From the NCBI RefSeq assembly GCF_002754315.1, contig NZ_PEFE01000001.1, forward strand, positions 1,488,001 to 1,552,000: a stretch of DNA of 64,000 nucleotides, written 5' to 3'. The notes beneath the pieces are model-generated. The model was given only the letters and a program-made list of their open reading frames with translations, was not told the origin of the DNA and ran no database searches. The DNA is from Flavobacterium sp. 11. GTDB lineage: Bacteria; Bacteroidota; Bacteroidia; Flavobacteriales; Flavobacteriaceae. Below are positions 5,656 through 9,914 of this stretch, one piece after another (the stretch's first letter is position 1; each line of letters opens with the position of its first letter). Both the position numbers and the translations under genes were made by a program.

Positions 5656-5727
5656 GGCCCGTTCGTCTATCGGTTAGGACGCATGGTTTTCATCCATGTA
5701 AGAGCGGTTCGATTCCGCTACGGGCTA
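5656..5727 (+). tRNA. tRNA-Glu (anticodon TTC)
   Basis: A cloverleaf can be folded by eye. The acceptor is GGCCCGT with ACGGGCT (first pair G-U). The anticodon stem is CATGG/CCATG around the 7-nt loop TTTTCAT, giving anticodon TTC. The T arm is GCGGTTCGATTCCGC. The discriminator is A at 5727; CCA is not encoded. A perfect promoter precedes it and a terminator follows, so it is transcribed alone. It borders the accessory region to its right. Confidence 0.93.
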
Positions 5728-5749
5728 CAACTCATAAACAATTATCTTA

Positions 5750-5843: not shown

Positions 5844-6068
5844 TTAAATTCTATTTAGCAATTCTTTTACAGTAGCAAATAGTCCAATCAATATTATTAT
5901 AAATATTCCGCGTATTCTAAATTTTGATAAGGAATCTCTATATTCATTTTTTTTCTCGCTTTTTCTCTTTTCGTATAAATCCCATTTGACAATTAAAAAA
6001 GCAACAAAAATCCAGAAAAAGAAATAAAAAATTAATGTATTTGTACTTTCTTCTTGTATGTATTCCAT
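5844..6068 (-). CDS. Small two-helix membrane protein, 74 aa
   Basis: Starts at ATG 6068. Two hydrophobic segments (LIFYFFFWIFVAFLIVKW near residues 12-29 and GIFIIILIGLFATV near 54-67) flank a highly charged linker (EKRKSEKKNEYRDS), predicting a small inner-membrane protein. No family is recognised. It is the first gene right of tRNA-Glu and the base composition is very A/T-rich like the two unknown genes further right, so it may belong to the same accessory patch. It could also be a chance frame, but the orderly hydrophobic/charged pattern speaks for a gene. Confidence 0.5.
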   Translation of the reverse strand: MEYIQEESTNTLIFYFFFWIFVAFLIVKWDLYEKRKSEKKNEYRDSLSKFRIRGIFIIILIGLFATVKELLNRI

Positions 6069-6377
6069 TGATATTAATTTATACTTATTTACAATATATT
6101 ACGCTGCGCAAAGTCTCCCGACTTTGTGCCAAATCCTATATGCCGTTTACGTTTTACACTTATTATATTTTATTTGCTCATTATTGTGGGCGCAAAGTCA
6201 GAGACGTTTGCGCAGCTTGTGCGACAACTTTATTCTTTGAATGAATACTTTGCGGAGCTGGTTTTGGAGTTTATACGACAAATTTATTCTTTTAATTAAC
6301 ATTTTGCGGAGCGGGAGTAATTTCCACCTGAGAAAAACTGAACAAGACATTGCGCCAAACTGCCATTAAGAGAAGTT
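6069..6377. other. Gene-poor 309-bp stretch with an imperfect direct repeat
   Basis: No convincing gene. Two ~37-bp copies of one sequence lie 54 bp apart (6222-6258 and 6276-6312). Both contain CGACAA.TTTATTCTTT followed by TTTGCGGAGC. Short plus-strand frames here are poor in protein-like features. The stretch lies between two minus-strand unknown genes and is probably decayed accessory DNA. Confidence 0.5.
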
Positions 6378-7151
6378 TTACAGCATTGATTCATGATGCT
6401 TAACCAATCTATTTTCATCGCTTTCAAGTTTCTTACTTATAATCTTTGCAATTTCAAACATATTATAAATATCAGGAAACTCTATGCTACTAATTACATC
6501 AAATATGTCATCACCTTTTTTTAAAGGACTTGTAAGACTTCTCAACTTTAATTGGTGAAGATAAACTTGATTTACAATACCATTATTGTGAGTTAATAGA
6601 TTTCTATTTAATGATGTCAGAAAGAGCATATCTAATTGTTCATTTGACAATTCGAAATTGAGATTGAATAGTTTTTCAATTTTCGTTATAATTTCAATAA
6701 TATTATTACTTTGAATTATCTTTTTTACGCGAAATGTTACCATAAAGTCTTTAATATCTTCAATACTACTATCATCATTAAAGATTTTGTCATAAGGGAT
6801 GTCATTTTTTGAATCAACAGAATTCATAAATTTTGGAAACTTACTAAAGCATAAATACAGAAAATTGGACAAATATTCTTCAAAGGTTTGAAAATGTAAT
6901 TTATAAATTAGCTCATGATTAATCGTTTCATAAGCTCTCTTTTTAGTAATTATATCTTTGGAATTTTTAAAACCCCTATAAGTTGCAGAAGCGTTTTTCG
7001 ATTTTTCTATTGCTTTTTTTATTTCCGAAACACTAAGGCTACCAATAATTAAATTAGTATATTCATTATATATATTGTAGTTCACAATTTCTTGCGTTTT
7101 TTTTAAATATATTAAATGAATTTCTGAAACTTGTTTAGCGAATGGTATCAT
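6378..7151 (-). CDS. HEPN-motif-containing hypothetical protein, 257 aa
   Basis: Soluble, A/T-rich, Lys/Asn/Ile-rich protein with no recognised full-length family. The clearest feature is R183-N-L-L-T-H188 followed by NNGIVNQVY: an Rx4H motif with a polar residue after Arg and a following helix, the signature of HEPN-fold ribonucleases common in toxin-antitoxin, abortive-infection and other defence proteins. Long predicted helices surround it, as expected for a HEPN bundle. It starts at ATG 7151, directly after an inverted-repeat element (7159-7293) that separates it from the nuclease-like gene on the same strand. The motif is seen; RNase activity and a defence role are inference. Confidence 0.65.
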   Translation of the reverse strand: MIPFAKQVSEIHLIYLKKTQEIVNYNIYNEYTNLIIGSLSVSEIKKAIEKSKNASATYRGFKNSKDIITKKRAYETINHELIYKLHFQTFEEYLSNFLYLCFSKFPKFMNSVDSKNDIPYDKIFNDDSSIEDIKDFMVTFRVKKIIQSNNIIEIITKIEKLFNLNFELSNEQLDMLFLTSLNRNLLTHNNGIVNQVYLHQLKLRSLTSPLKKGDDIFDVISSIEFPDIYNMFEIAKIISKKLESDENRLVKHHESML

Positions 7152-7158
7152 AAAATTT

Positions 7159-7293
7159 CTGTTAACATCCCGTTGCTTTAAGCAGGTGGGAACTTTTATT
7201 ACTTAATTTTCGGTTTAGAACGGAAGCCAAATATACAAAAAGAACTTTCAGTTAAGCCTTAAGCTTCCACTTGCTTAAAACCACTGTTAGCGG
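7159..7293. repeat. 135-bp imperfect inverted-repeat element between two accessory genes
   Basis: The left arm (7159-7189, starting CTGTTAACATCC and ending AGCAGGTGG) is the imperfect reverse complement of the right arm (7267-7293, starting CCACTTGCTTAAAACC and ending GTTAGCGG). The centre is ~77 bp of A/T-rich DNA without a gene. The element fills the whole space between the stop of the nuclease-like gene (7297) and the start of the HEPN-like gene (7151). A TTTCTGTTAA sequence like its left end recurs just outside the start of the nuclease-like gene (8118-8127). It looks like a recombination or mobility boundary, or a transcript hairpin between cassettes; the role is inference. Confidence 0.6.
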
Positions 7294-7296
7294 TAG

Positions 7297-8112
7297 TTAT
7301 TGGGCAATTTCATCATTAGATGCCAAAGTCATTATCAAAATTCCATATAGATTTTCATCAGGAGGCTGAATTTCTGCGCTTTCATTTTTAAATAAACTAA
7401 GAACGTAATCGGGAGGGTTTTCTGTAATAAAACTTTCTGGAATATTTAGATTTAGTTCTTTGATAATATTATTATCTAATGGAAAATTTGCTTTAGCGTA
7501 ATTTTCCATTTGCTGAATCTTGTCATTGCCATGATATCCAGAGCAACATACTAAGCAGTGCCAAGGTCTTATTAACATTTCCAAATCTCGTAAATGTTTG
7601 ATATTAGATGAACGCAATTTTTGCACATCAAAAGCATTAATTAGTGAGCAACCCCAAAATTTTCTATCTAATGTGAATGTTTTGCAAAACCACCTTTTGA
7701 GTAACGATTTATCATTAGTACTTAGGAAAAGTGAATATAAAGGAATTTTTGGAGGTGAAGTTGTTAATGCATTATGTATTAAAGTATCACATTGGTGCAT
7801 TACTGCTTTTTTTCCTTTATAATGTAAATGTTCGAATTCATTACTTTTGTTATTAATTATTTTTGCCTGAATTCTAAATCCTATCCATTTTCCATTATTA
7901 TTAAACCACCATTCCCAATCTGCTCCATTCTTAGATTCATAATATTTTGAAAAAGTATGGGTTATCACTTGATGACCATGTTTTCTCTTTAATTCTAAAA
8001 CAATCATGTCAGTAAGAGTTTCTTCTTTAAGCTGGTAGTTTACTTTTCGGCTACGGTTTATCTGTGTCCAAGTATAAACAGCTAATTGCTGAAAAGTGTT
8101 ACAAACTGTCAT
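7297..8112 (-). CDS. PD-(D/E)xK nuclease-like protein, possibly DUF6615, 271 aa
   Basis: The N-terminal third carries a restriction-endonuclease-like pattern: a helix with conserved acid (KEETLTDMIVLELKRKHG, E30/E31), then GADWEWWF (D65, E67), then WIGFRIQAK (Q82-A-K84). A D-x(n)-QxK arrangement with Gln is a known variant of the PD-(D/E)xK site (for example in Mrr-type enzymes). The motif set reminds me of DUF6615, from memory only. The C-terminal part has a CLVCCSG stretch, possibly structural cysteines. It is the upstream gene of a minus-strand pair with the HEPN-like protein. A nucleic-acid-cleaving defence role is inference. Confidence 0.6.
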   Translation of the reverse strand: MTVCNTFQQLAVYTWTQINRSRKVNYQLKEETLTDMIVLELKRKHGHQVITHTFSKYYESKNGADWEWWFNNNGKWIGFRIQAKIINNKSNEFEHLHYKGKKAVMHQCDTLIHNALTTSPPKIPLYSLFLSTNDKSLLKRWFCKTFTLDRKFWGCSLINAFDVQKLRSSNIKHLRDLEMLIRPWHCLVCCSGYHGNDKIQQMENYAKANFPLDNNIIKELNLNIPESFITENPPDYVLSLFKNESAEIQPPDENLYGILIMTLASNDEIAQ

Positions 8113-8304
8113 ATGTTTTCTGTTAAGATTATGTTTCTATTATAATTATCGCTAACTTGTTTATAGGTCTGATAACGTACAACTTATCCACCCATAGCTG
8201 GCTAGCTTTGCATGATAAAAGTGATACATTATTAGTAATCCAAATATATAATAATTATCTTATAAATTATCAAAGCAATTTTATATTATTGAAAACCTCG
8301 AGCC

Positions 8305-8420
8305 GCGTGAAGGATGGCAGTGGAAATCCTTTTATGAAGCGAAGCGCAATAAAAGATTATAACGGACAGCCTGACCCAAAGTTGCGAGGAGGAACGACAA
8401 GTAATCTGCAGGGACACGCC
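8305..8420. repeat. Intergenic palindromic repeat, copy A
   Basis: Begins GCGTGAAGGATGGCAGTGGA, then AATCCTTTTA pairs with TAAAAGATT around a short G/C-rich loop, then continues through ACGGACAGCCTGACCC to GGGACACGCC. The first half and the stem match copy C at 48463-48561 base for base at most positions. It lies between genes with no coding potential. Its architecture resembles structured intergenic repeats I associate with Flavobacterium genomes. Confidence 0.65.
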
Positions 8421-8526: not shown

Positions 8527-8560
8527 TTTGGGTTGCAAAAATTTTATAATTTTGCAACCC
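8527..8560 (+). promoter_or_regulatory. tig promoter overlapped by a perfect 11-bp inverted repeat
   Basis: TTTG at 8527-8530 and TAATTTTG at 8547-8554 form a Bacteroidota-type promoter with a shorter 16-nt spacer. A perfect inverted repeat, GGGTTGCAAAA (8530-8540) and TTTTGCAACCC (8550-8560), covers the spacer and the -7 box, 28 bp before the tig start. It could be an operator for a dimeric regulator or a terminator-like hairpin. Confidence 0.55.
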
Positions 8561-8588
8561 AATTTTATTATGTAAATTAAAGAAGAAG

Positions 8589-9914
8589 ATGGATATCAAA
8601 AGAGTAGCAATAGACGCTGTGAATGAAACAATTGTAATGACTGTTGTTCACATGGATTACAAAGGACAAGTTGCAAAAAGAATAAACGAAAAAATGCCTT
8701 TGGCAACTGTTAAGGGATTTAGAAAAGGAGCGGTGCCTAAAGATCTTGTTGAAAAACAATACGGTAAAGCTATTAAACAAGAAGAAGTTCAGAAAGTTGT
8801 TGATTTGGCTCTAGAGCGTTTCGTACAATCAGAAAGATTAAACCTTCTTGGAACGCCACTTCCTAAAGTAAACGAAGATTTTTCTTGGGATGCTGAAGAA
8901 TTGGTTTTTGAATATGAAATTGGATTGGTTCCAAACTTCACTTTAGACTTAGATGCTAAAAACGACATCGTAAAATATGTGGTTACTGCTGACGATAAAT
9001 TAATCGACGGTCAAGTGGAAAGAATCCAAAAACAATTTGGAACTGCAATTCCTCAAGAGGTTGTTGCTGCAGATTCAGATGTAACGGGAACATTCACTAA
9101 CGAAGAAAAAGGAATTAATAACGCTACCACTATTGCTGCTGATCTTTTCAAAGACAAAGCGACTTTTGACTTGTTCATAGGTAAAAAAGTAGGTGATGTA
9201 GTGACTGTAAATACTAAAGGTTTATTTGAAGACGACCACCAATTGATGGACGTGATGAAAGTAAGTCATGATGACGTTCACGGTTTAGATGTTGATGTAA
9301 ACTTCACAATCGAAGCTATCAACACTGCTGAATTAGCAGAATTGAACCAAGAATTGTTCGATAAATTGTTTGGAGCTGGAACTGTTTCTTCACTTGAAGA
9401 ATTGAAAGCAAAAATCAAAGAAGATGCTGAAAATCAATTTGCACAACAAGCTGACCAAAAATTATTAGGTGATGTAACGGAGTTCTTAATCGAAAGCACA
9501 AAATTTGATTTACCAGCTGAATTCCTTAAAAAATGGTTGCAAACTGTTGGTGAGAAAAAATTATCTCCTGAGGAAGCTGAAGTGGAATATGCACGTTCTG
9601 AAAAAGGATTGCGTTTTCAATTGATCGAAGGTAGAGCAATGGCTCAATCTGATATCAAAATCACTTTTGAAGACTTGAAAACATTCACTACAAAAAATAT
9701 TCGTCAACAAATGGCGCAATTCGGGCAAACAAATCCTACTGACGAAGAAGTTCAAGGAATTGTAGCTAGAGTTTTGTCTAACCAAGACGAAGTGAAAAGA
9801 CTTTCTGACCAAGTTGTTGCTGAGAAATTATTGGAATTGTTCAAAGAAAAAGCAAATCCTACTACTAAAGAAGTGACTTACGAAGAATTTATTGCTGCTT
9901 CTTACGGAGAATAA
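8589..9914 (+). CDS. tig: Trigger factor, ribosome-associated chaperone
   Basis: Ribosome-bound folding chaperone for nascent chains, 441 aa. The N-terminal ribosome-binding domain includes the conserved GFRKGAVP loop (consensus GFRxGxxP) that docks on ribosomal protein L23. The middle region corresponds to the PPIase/FKBP-like domain, much diverged from proteobacterial proteins as is usual in Bacteroidota, and the C-terminal half is the helical chaperone domain (EELKAKIKEDAENQFAQQADQKL). Followed by clpP and clpX in the same order as in many bacteria, but with a 408-bp gap. Starts at ATG 8589, just after its promoter. Confidence 0.95.
   Translation: MDIKRVAIDAVNETIVMTVVHMDYKGQVAKRINEKMPLATVKGFRKGAVPKDLVEKQYGKAIKQEEVQKVVDLALERFVQSERLNLLGTPLPKVNEDFSWDAEELVFEYEIGLVPNFTLDLDAKNDIVKYVVTADDKLIDGQVERIQKQFGTAIPQEVVAADSDVTGTFTNEEKGINNATTIAADLFKDKATFDLFIGKKVGDVVTVNTKGLFEDDHQLMDVMKVSHDDVHGLDVDVNFTIEAINTAELAELNQELFDKLFGAGTVSSLEELKAKIKEDAENQFAQQADQKLLGDVTEFLIESTKFDLPAEFLKKWLQTVGEKKLSPEEAEVEYARSEKGLRFQLIEGRAMAQSDIKITFEDLKTFTTKNIRQQMAQFGQTNPTDEEVQGIVARVLSNQDEVKRLSDQVVAEKLLELFKEKANPTTKEVTYEEFIAASYGE

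Follow-up and report, generated by a model that had tools for sequence, protein, structure and literature searches.

An integron cassette extends from the TT of the preceding recombination site to the G of its own site, and its two terminal boxes are complementary to each other. The attC sites of canonical integrons measure 57 to 142 nt and carry extrahelical bases in their L stem, as given in the part of PMC2727003 available to us. The canonical integrase, IntI, has an additional domain (the I2 region, about 40 residues); in the accessible portion of PMC7790495, the ability to recombine single-stranded attC is ascribed to the gain of the I2 helix, and deletion of I2 abolishes the function of IntI1. 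In Treponema integrons, the recombinase gene is transcribed toward attI and the cassettes (PMC3607928, available text). Moreover, within simple tyrosine recombinases there is an "integron-like" subgroup in which the insertion is not fully conserved, and the available part of its description (PMC8138268) mentions no cassettes, attI, or attC for the members that lack it.

The locus considered here lies in a window of 64,000 nucleotides from Flavobacterium sp. 11, by which we mean the whole stretch of DNA that was analyzed; its features are collected in Table 1. An element at 7159-7293 occupies the space from one minus-strand gene (7297-8112) to the next (6378-7151), as an earlier note on this DNA had claimed and as the gene coordinates confirm. 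Because both neighbors are on the minus strand, the element is to be read on that strand too, where its letters run CGCTAAC-AGTGGTTTTAAGCAAGTGG ... CCACCTGCTTAAAGCAACGGGAT-GTTAACA; in this reading, the imperfect inverted copies that the note had seen at its ends are evident. A second CGCTAAC, at 8150, which the note had taken for a recurring boundary, is the start box of the same cassette, with 13 of 15 positions complementary to the end box. On the other hand, TTTCTGTTAA at 8118 had been assigned to the boundary wrongly: it belongs to a 30-nt leader, 73% alike between its copies, that precedes both genes. Read on the minus strand, the element is an attC-like cassette recombination site, and we consider it very likely that the system to which it belongs is an integron-like one of Bacteroidota, run by a recombinase that is related to IntI and has no I2.

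Table 1. Features of the cassette platform and its flanks (window coordinates)
Feature	Position	Strand	Evidence or remark
attC-like site 1, core AAC (7288-7286) to GTT (7166-7164)	7164..7288	-	nhmmer 72.3 bits, E 5.6e-21; covariance model R1 107 bits
attC-like site 1 with outer boxes	~7150-7303	-	covariance model R1 107 bits
Cassette-end box ATAACTACCGCTAAC (R''-like), cassette 1	7286..7300	-	13/15 complementary to start box 8156-8142
Cassette-start box GTTAGCGATAATTAT; crossover predicted at G 8156|T 8155	8142..8156	-	rule of 54 + 71 pairs elsewhere
Cassette 1, 990 nt	7166..8155	-	delimited by G|TT on either side
Cassette 1 gene, 271 aa, DUF6615 (PF20320, E 3.3e-15)	7297..8112	-	
attI-like site GGGTGGATAAG...TTATCAGACC TATAAAC A AG|TT	8150..8193	-	layout as attI of recombinase-bearing relatives
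Candidate cassette promoter TATATTTG	8241..8248	-	14 nt from putative recombinase stop codon
Putative last codons of lost recombinase gene, TTTGATAATTTATAA (F D N L stop)	8260..8274	-	spacing as in relatives
Probable cassette 2, end uncertain	6300..7165	-	G|TT 7166/7165 as start
Cassette 2 gene, 257 aa	6378..7151	-	
tRNA-Glu, other flank of variable interval	5656..5728	+	
Trigger factor gene tig, platform flank	8589..9914	+	TIGR00115, 170.9 bits, just below cut-off 180.2

Taken alone, the element does not stand out from chance. Single-strand folding, which the earlier note had proposed as a test, gave z = -0.71 for the minus strand and -1.60 for the plus strand, neither beyond shuffles. BLAST found no second copy in the element's own genome, and no Rfam family matched over the site at E <= 0.1. 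A search of the window for the core pattern returned 1 match against 0.82 expected (2 mismatches allowed), which is uninformative by itself. What lifts the element above chance is its homologues, together with the rule by which their boxes pair.

The element is neither unique to this locus nor tied to its two genes. With BLAST, the element matched 8 of 100 genomes, one of them the window's own, with several matches per contig in some, and a site profile was positive in 241 of 299 genus genomes and 173 of 395 class genomes; the window genome is included in these tallies, for which scoring was limited to the 11 or 8 best candidates of each genome, making the per-genome numbers floors. Some of the genomes were placed in the genus or class through named records that are identical or near to them. 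The window site itself is among the copies used to build both the nhmmer model and the covariance model that score it. In an alignment of seventeen copies, which extends from AAC to GTT, the arms are conserved, and the boxes outside vary. On contigs of genomes G009 and G011, adjacent full-length sites lie 328 to 2842 nt apart and point in one direction per contig; contig 43 of G011 has 19 consecutive sites, 18 of them full-length. The genes beside the sites are diverse, with 95 protein clusters among 110 cassette open reading frames (ORFs), and their orientation is nearly uniform: the longest ORF was on the strand of the site in 103 of 117 cases and on the opposite strand in 7, while 7 had no ORF of 50 aa. 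The earlier note's proposal, a unit repeated at cassette boundaries that resembles attC without matching it exactly, is supported. To judge from their sequences, the gene cassettes of these arrays form a system that functions in the manner of an integron, and it is widely distributed among Flavobacterium and related bacteria. A literature search found no description of such arrays in Flavobacterium in the texts it covered, which were sources other than subscription papers and preprints.

In the genome of the window, the profile identified 12 sites at E < 1e-4, the window site included. All 12 are on the minus strand, scattered between 0.76 and 2.98 Mb, and two weaker ones are on the plus strand. 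A trio of sites at 2118541-2119983 of this genome, in which no family recombinase was found at E <= 1e-60, indicates that cassettes persist there without one.

The cassette rule of integrons holds across the arrays. Between 54 pairs of neighboring sites, the end box and the start box of the intervening cassette pair at 348 of 378 positions, as compared with 174 +/- 10 after shuffling (maximum, 204 in 2000); 69 full-length sites were kept for this test and partial matches dropped, so that a few neighbors skip a site. The two boxes of any single site pair less well than do those of neighbors. In arrays outside model building, 65 of 71 neighbors pair at >= 6/7, with a spacing of 236 to 7208 nt (median, 889); this set comprises three single-contig genomes and the trio of the window's own genome, and, since some of its cassettes are duplicates, the pairs are not all independent. 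Six of the 71 break the rule, five of them with nearly the same odd end box. These five (arrays L166-L172) have the nearly identical end box AATTTATCAATTGTA. At the eighth position outside AAC/GTT, there is no pairing at all (0 of 54 in the first set, 0 of 71 in the second): the start-box letter there is A in 125 of 125, and the end-box letter is C in 92, G in 31, and A in 2. A description of this position as always C versus A was therefore wrong. Beyond it, about four further positions pair.

Duplicated cassettes point to the same units. Thirteen cassette pairs were matched, of which eight near-identical ones were examined (481 to 754 nt, 0 to 2 mismatches); they occupy different places within G011, G045, and G238, and three of them are pairs among three copies of one cassette. 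In four of the eight, both sides lose identity 2 to 4 nt from the predicted G|TT; in the other four, one side does so, and the other remains alike for a further 11 to 28 nt. Two cassettes are shared by different genomes, at 84% and 91%. The cassette units and the predicted crossover point are borne out by sequence, and, as in canonical integrons, cassettes with an attC-like site, a crossover at G|TT, and R''/R' complementarity within the cassette are found. With respect to cargo, Pfam and PADLOC matches among 80 of 96 listed cassette proteins (the best 25 families) included Shedu, GmrSD, restriction enzymes, MutH, beta-lactamase-fold proteins, erythromycin esterase, a Cass2/GyrI-like protein, and many DUFs; many cassette genes are defense-like (Shedu, GmrSD, and restriction enzymes).

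The arms of the site appear to be kept for pairing. Among 40 sites, hand-picked from 69 for diversity, 11 of 20 arm pairs have changes on both sides, and the covariation score is 0.338, as compared with 0.082 +/- 0.011 for shuffled alignments and at most 0.111 for slid versions, with a structure that was drawn from the same sequences; further pair types are no commoner than in shuffled alignments (19 versus 18.1). These changes bear out covarying arms. When the boxes are joined as in the excised form, the bottom strand is predicted to be the more stable one in 104 of 125 sites and equal in 3, with an average advantage of 2.7 kcal/mol (Wilcoxon 1.6e-15, a value that is too good because related sites are not independent). 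A hairpin with a bottom-strand bias, a hallmark of canonical integrons, is accordingly present by prediction. By analogy with integrons, the folded bottom strand of the site would be the substrate. The extrahelical bases of the canonical L stem are a different matter: they are mostly, though not wholly, absent, inasmuch as the arms are equal in length in 31 of 40 sites, which forces no extrahelical base, and unequal in 9, and a bulge of 1 to 2 nt appears in 15 of 67 predicted folds. There is instead a constant asymmetry, a spacer of 3 nt on one side and 7 to 8 nt on the other, which gives a one-sided 4-nt bulge 58 times in 67 folds. We propose that this one-sided spacer of about 4 nt may set polarity in place of extrahelical bases.

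The same cassettes and the same recombinase could also work on double strands, with sites that act as duplex and arms that are ordinary binding sites for a recombinase dimer. We give this reading some weight, while thinking it rather unlikely. It would suit a recombinase without the region that in IntI docks extrahelical bases, as well as the equal arms of 31 of 40 sites, and Xer-type enzymes, which have no I2, recombine double strands (PMC7790495, accessible portion). Against it stand the compensatory changes that keep the arms pairing and the better folding of the bottom strand in 104 of 125 joined sites; moreover, the full stem exists only in the excised circle, because the box that pairs with a site's end box is at the far end of the cassette.

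Evidence that links the sites to a recombinase comes from the gene neighborhoods. A tyrosine recombinase gene directly precedes the array in G023 and G011. Among 80 named loci with a recombinase gene of this family, a site at E <= 1e-5 leads away from the gene in 32, and none was found at that level in 48. The 32 loci comprise 23 in which the site is downstream and codirectional and 9 in which it is upstream and divergent, with one best site per locus entered in this count and the other rows checked by eye; two matches run against the polarity rule, at L245:1648 (E 6.5e-6) and L257:1965 (partial, E 0.0025). Of 59 further recombinase loci, 28 have a match, 26 downstream and codirectional and 2 upstream and divergent. 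These arrangements bear out the polarity of the arrays and their association with the recombinase family. In the class sample, 125 genomes have both site and recombinase, 48 the site only, 74 the recombinase only, and 148 neither (recombinase at E <= 1e-60; odds ratio, 5.2, kinship ignored); the corresponding numbers for G000-G060 (28/21/4/8) are not significant (p 0.2).

A candidate attI was evident beside the recombinase gene. The motif TATAWRY..AGTT follows the stop codon, at no more than 300 nt from its first base, in 44 of 56 loci and is absent in 12, as compared with 1.3% of shuffled sequences and 2 of 56 upstream windows, and in 28 of the 44 it lies at 103-106 nt. In 18 of 22 loci, or in 20 of 22 if a second motif copy is allowed, at least 6 of the seven nucleotides that come after the GTT of the motif pair with the first site's end box; all 28 site-bearing loci were used, of which 22 were usable, 4 had no motif, and 2 were divergent. 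With a shuffle control, into which 21 of the 28 were entered, pairing at >= 6/7 was seen in 16 of 20 loci, with a sum of 116 of 140 positions versus 58 for shuffled sequences (maximum, 79). In view of its position and its pairing with the end box of the first cassette, we read the motif as attI. As in canonical integrons, this attI adjoins the recombinase gene, and the first cassette is inserted in it. A perfect inverted repeat precedes the motif in 27 of 44 loci (shuffled, 1.5%). In addition, a candidate promoter, TAnnTTTG, is found no farther than 60 nt from where the recombinase stop codon begins in 35 of the 44 attI loci, most commonly at 14 nt (shuffled, 2.6%), and may drive the cassettes from a position after the recombinase gene.

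We infer that the family recombinase carries out the recombination. It would join circular cassettes to the attI-like site by its own gene; with the joint between G and TT, each cassette would keep its start box and its site as one unit, and cassettes could be excised, duplicated, and exchanged.

XerC/XerD-dif shares the tyrosine recombinase fold with this system and has, to our knowledge, no cassettes. That host XerC and XerD act on the sites, the neighboring recombinase gene being incidental, seems improbable to us. In its favor, the window's genome has 12 sites and no family recombinase at E <= 1e-60, and XerC/D-like proteins are present in the 7 genomes from which they were fetched. Nevertheless, the arrays run away from the family recombinase in the 32 named and 28 other loci, its attI and the first cassette have matching boxes in 18 of 22, its 53 rows form a clade apart from 15 Xer, and clusters without an integrase (CALIN) are known for ordinary integrons too (PMC9024848, available text).

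The recombinase that we prefer as the agent resembles IntI without being one. Its best match among solved structures is Vibrio IntI4 (2a3v, 142.6 bits), followed by an archaeal Xer (130.4), and it has no counterpart to IntI4 residues 206-245. Measured between the KGKKDR motif and HxLRH, the stretch is 64-67 residues long in 53 of 53 recombinases of the family, 106 in 19 of 19 IntI of the phylum, and 70-72 in 15 of 15 Xer; this comparison started from 20 IntI loci and from 57 loci of the family, sampled at every second or third, of which 19 and 53, respectively, passed a length filter. A structure model from 60 sequences (pLDDT 82.6), which replaced a first one from 5 sequences (pLDDT 73.7), has no helix at the place of the IntI insertion. 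These observations bear out the lack of the additional domain that defines IntI. R214, K239, H303, R306, H329, and Y338 are invariant in 60 recombinases and are taken for a putative active site.

Models of known families are divided over the recombinase. Six recombinases scored 173-212 bits with the IntI model TIGR02249, below its cut-off of 265. The archaeal XerA model NF040815, the name of which also includes "site-specific tyrosine recombinase/integron integrase," scored at least as high as TIGR02249 for five of the six; L050 (220.7) and L051 (222.1) are above its cut-off of 220, and L052 (216.4), L049 (212.3), L032 (197.6), and L053 (185.4) are below it. In the VIA-align ranking, XerC-like 4a8e (Z 23.3, rmsd 8.4) is at the top and IntI4 2a3v (Z 21.7, rmsd 3.0) comes next, so that structure does not decide kinship. 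In a tree whose Xer were members of the genus only, the 53 family rows form one clade (96/89), outside that of XerC/XerD: a branch with 100/98 support has the family, IntI, and an IS91-linked recombinase on one side and the 15 Xer on the other, with long branches flagged. We do not use the designation "sister to IntI," because IntI, the family, and the IS91-linked recombinase make an unresolved fork with a long branch and only genus Xer beside it.

At E <= 1e-60, the family recombinase is found in 180 of 299 genus genomes and 199 of 395 class genomes, counts into which members of the family with different functions may have entered. The top 80 named loci include those of Flavobacterium saliperosum, F. 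cauense, F. enshiense, F. limnosediminis, and F. columnare, and also of Kaistella, Mucilaginibacter, Runella, and Odoribacter. Many family recombinases have an N-terminal alpha/beta extension. A variant of about 600 aa with a long N-terminal part is encoded at L032:3268-5076, and open frames of similar length occur in other genomes. At L053:8622-10587, a tyrosine recombinase without the IntI insertion (72 residues) stands directly before an ORF like an IS91-type transposase (by eye); this recombinase falls near IntI on a long branch.

Given the lack of the insertion in all 53 measured recombinases, the sites are very improbable remnants of a canonical IntI integron that was formerly in the genus. 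Classical IntI does occur in the phylum, over the cut-off in 105 of 395 genomes, but among those marked as the window's class only G476 is over it, none of 20 listed own-genus genomes has a match at E <= 1e-40, and no match to TIGR02249 exceeds the cut-off in 8 site-bearing genus genomes. A dispersed, nonautonomous (MITE-like) repeat, or a structured RNA or terminator downstream of genes, would fit an intergenic hairpin after stop codons, but it is refuted as a sole explanation by the cassette-wise box pairing and the duplicates that end at G|TT, leaves the attI link unexplained, and has no Rfam match over the site, so that we give it next to no credence.

How do these integron-like arrays compare with described systems? 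With sedentary chromosomal integrons (IntI), they share tandem, one-orientation arrays of diverse genes, attI beside the recombinase, a crossover at G|TT, boxes of the R''/R' type, and hairpin sites with a bottom strand that is predicted to fold better. They differ in a recombinase without the IntI additional domain, in many cases with the N-terminal extension; in site cores of 118-159 nt (69 sites) versus the 57-142 nt given for attC in the available part of PMC2727003; in pairing that spans AAC/GTT plus 7 nt and then 4 more past the never-pairing position; and in the 31 of 40 sites that force no extrahelical base. The direction of transcription in Treponema integrons recurs in 23 of 32 named loci; in contrast to Treponema, there is no insertion here, the phylum is different, and 9 of the 32 loci are divergent. 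Like CALIN, the window locus is a site without a recombinase gene, but it keeps an attI-like site, and its site is of a new type. With XerC/XerD-dif, the family shares a similar motif spacing (70-72 residues there, 64-67 here), but it constitutes a separate clade. Unlike the insertion-less members of the "integron-like" subgroup, as far as the available description of these goes, the recombinases here come with cassettes, attI, and attC-like sites.

The system is integron-like in nearly every feature that sequence can show and is not a canonical integron by the IntI definition; we do not file it as one because the IntI insertion is absent and the extrahelical bases are mostly absent. We lean toward the view that a second lineage of cassette-capture recombinases, related to IntI and without I2, runs arrays throughout the class Bacteroidia by one of two substrate routes. 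In the first, folded single-stranded sites would be recognized via the one-sided spacer, the constant unpaired position, or the N-terminal extension. In the second, cassettes would be captured as duplex DNA; if true, this would give a picture of how integrons may have looked before I2. The claim about I2 becomes directly testable in so large a natural family, which shares the cassette logic but has no I2, and which is a candidate for an earlier or alternative state of integrons.

The window contains what can be read as a remnant of such a platform between tig and tRNA-Glu: an attI, one clear cassette with a DUF6615 gene, and probably a second, decayed cassette. No recombinase gene is present in the remnant. 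The attI stretch runs, on the minus strand, GGGTGGATAAG...TATAAACAAG|TTAGCG (8193-8150) and is alike at 22 of 23 nt to the attI of locus L151 (by eye). From the first base of the putative stop codon to the G of GTT there are 106 nt, as compared with 103-106 nt in 28 of 44 relatives. From the promoter-like box at 14 nt and the GTT at 106 nt, as in gene-bearing platforms, we infer an integron-like platform whose recombinase gene would have been lost. The box TATATTTG is presumably of the -7 promoter type of Bacteroidota. The codon match of TTTGATAATTTATAA is by itself weak, being only 15 nt, and stretches like it also occur upstream of tig in relatives without a platform shown. An internal deletion of the recombinase gene, suggested by a 72-bp match in the 5' flank, was discarded: the match is the known Flavo-1 RNA (RF01705) and hence gives no information on the fate of the gene. 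This RNA is at window 8297-8380 on the plus strand (59.1 bits; gathering threshold, 42), and Flavo-1-like stretches are found upstream of the recombinase gene in L110, L113, L115, L129, and L132.

For the second cassette, the best end-box complement is at 6382-6365 (13 of 18), a score that chance gives in 26% of trials, and an end placed by complementarity alone was therefore rejected as not significant. An attC-like arm, GGCAGTTTGGCGCAATG, comes after this end box (by eye), and no Pfam family matched the 257-aa protein at E <= 1. The interval from tRNA-Glu to tig differs among relatives: of 11 tig loci, L211 has a site at E 4.8e-16, L214 has weak matches only (E 0.03), and the rest have none at E <= 0.1. 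Those of L213 and L219 resemble attI (by eye), and none of the 11 is a clean empty site. Other observations concern the remainder of the interval. Two tandem 54-nt copies, 74% alike, occupy 6201-6308 beside an inverted repeat (6103-6130 and 6189-6216) and may be the remains of further decayed sites. A 74-aa ORF at 5844-6068 on the minus strand, between the decayed second site and tRNA-Glu, is possibly a third cassette gene. Finally, a near-perfect palindrome, TTGGGTTGCAAAA...TTTTGCAACCCAA, lies upstream of tig at 8528-8562 and is kept in many relatives.
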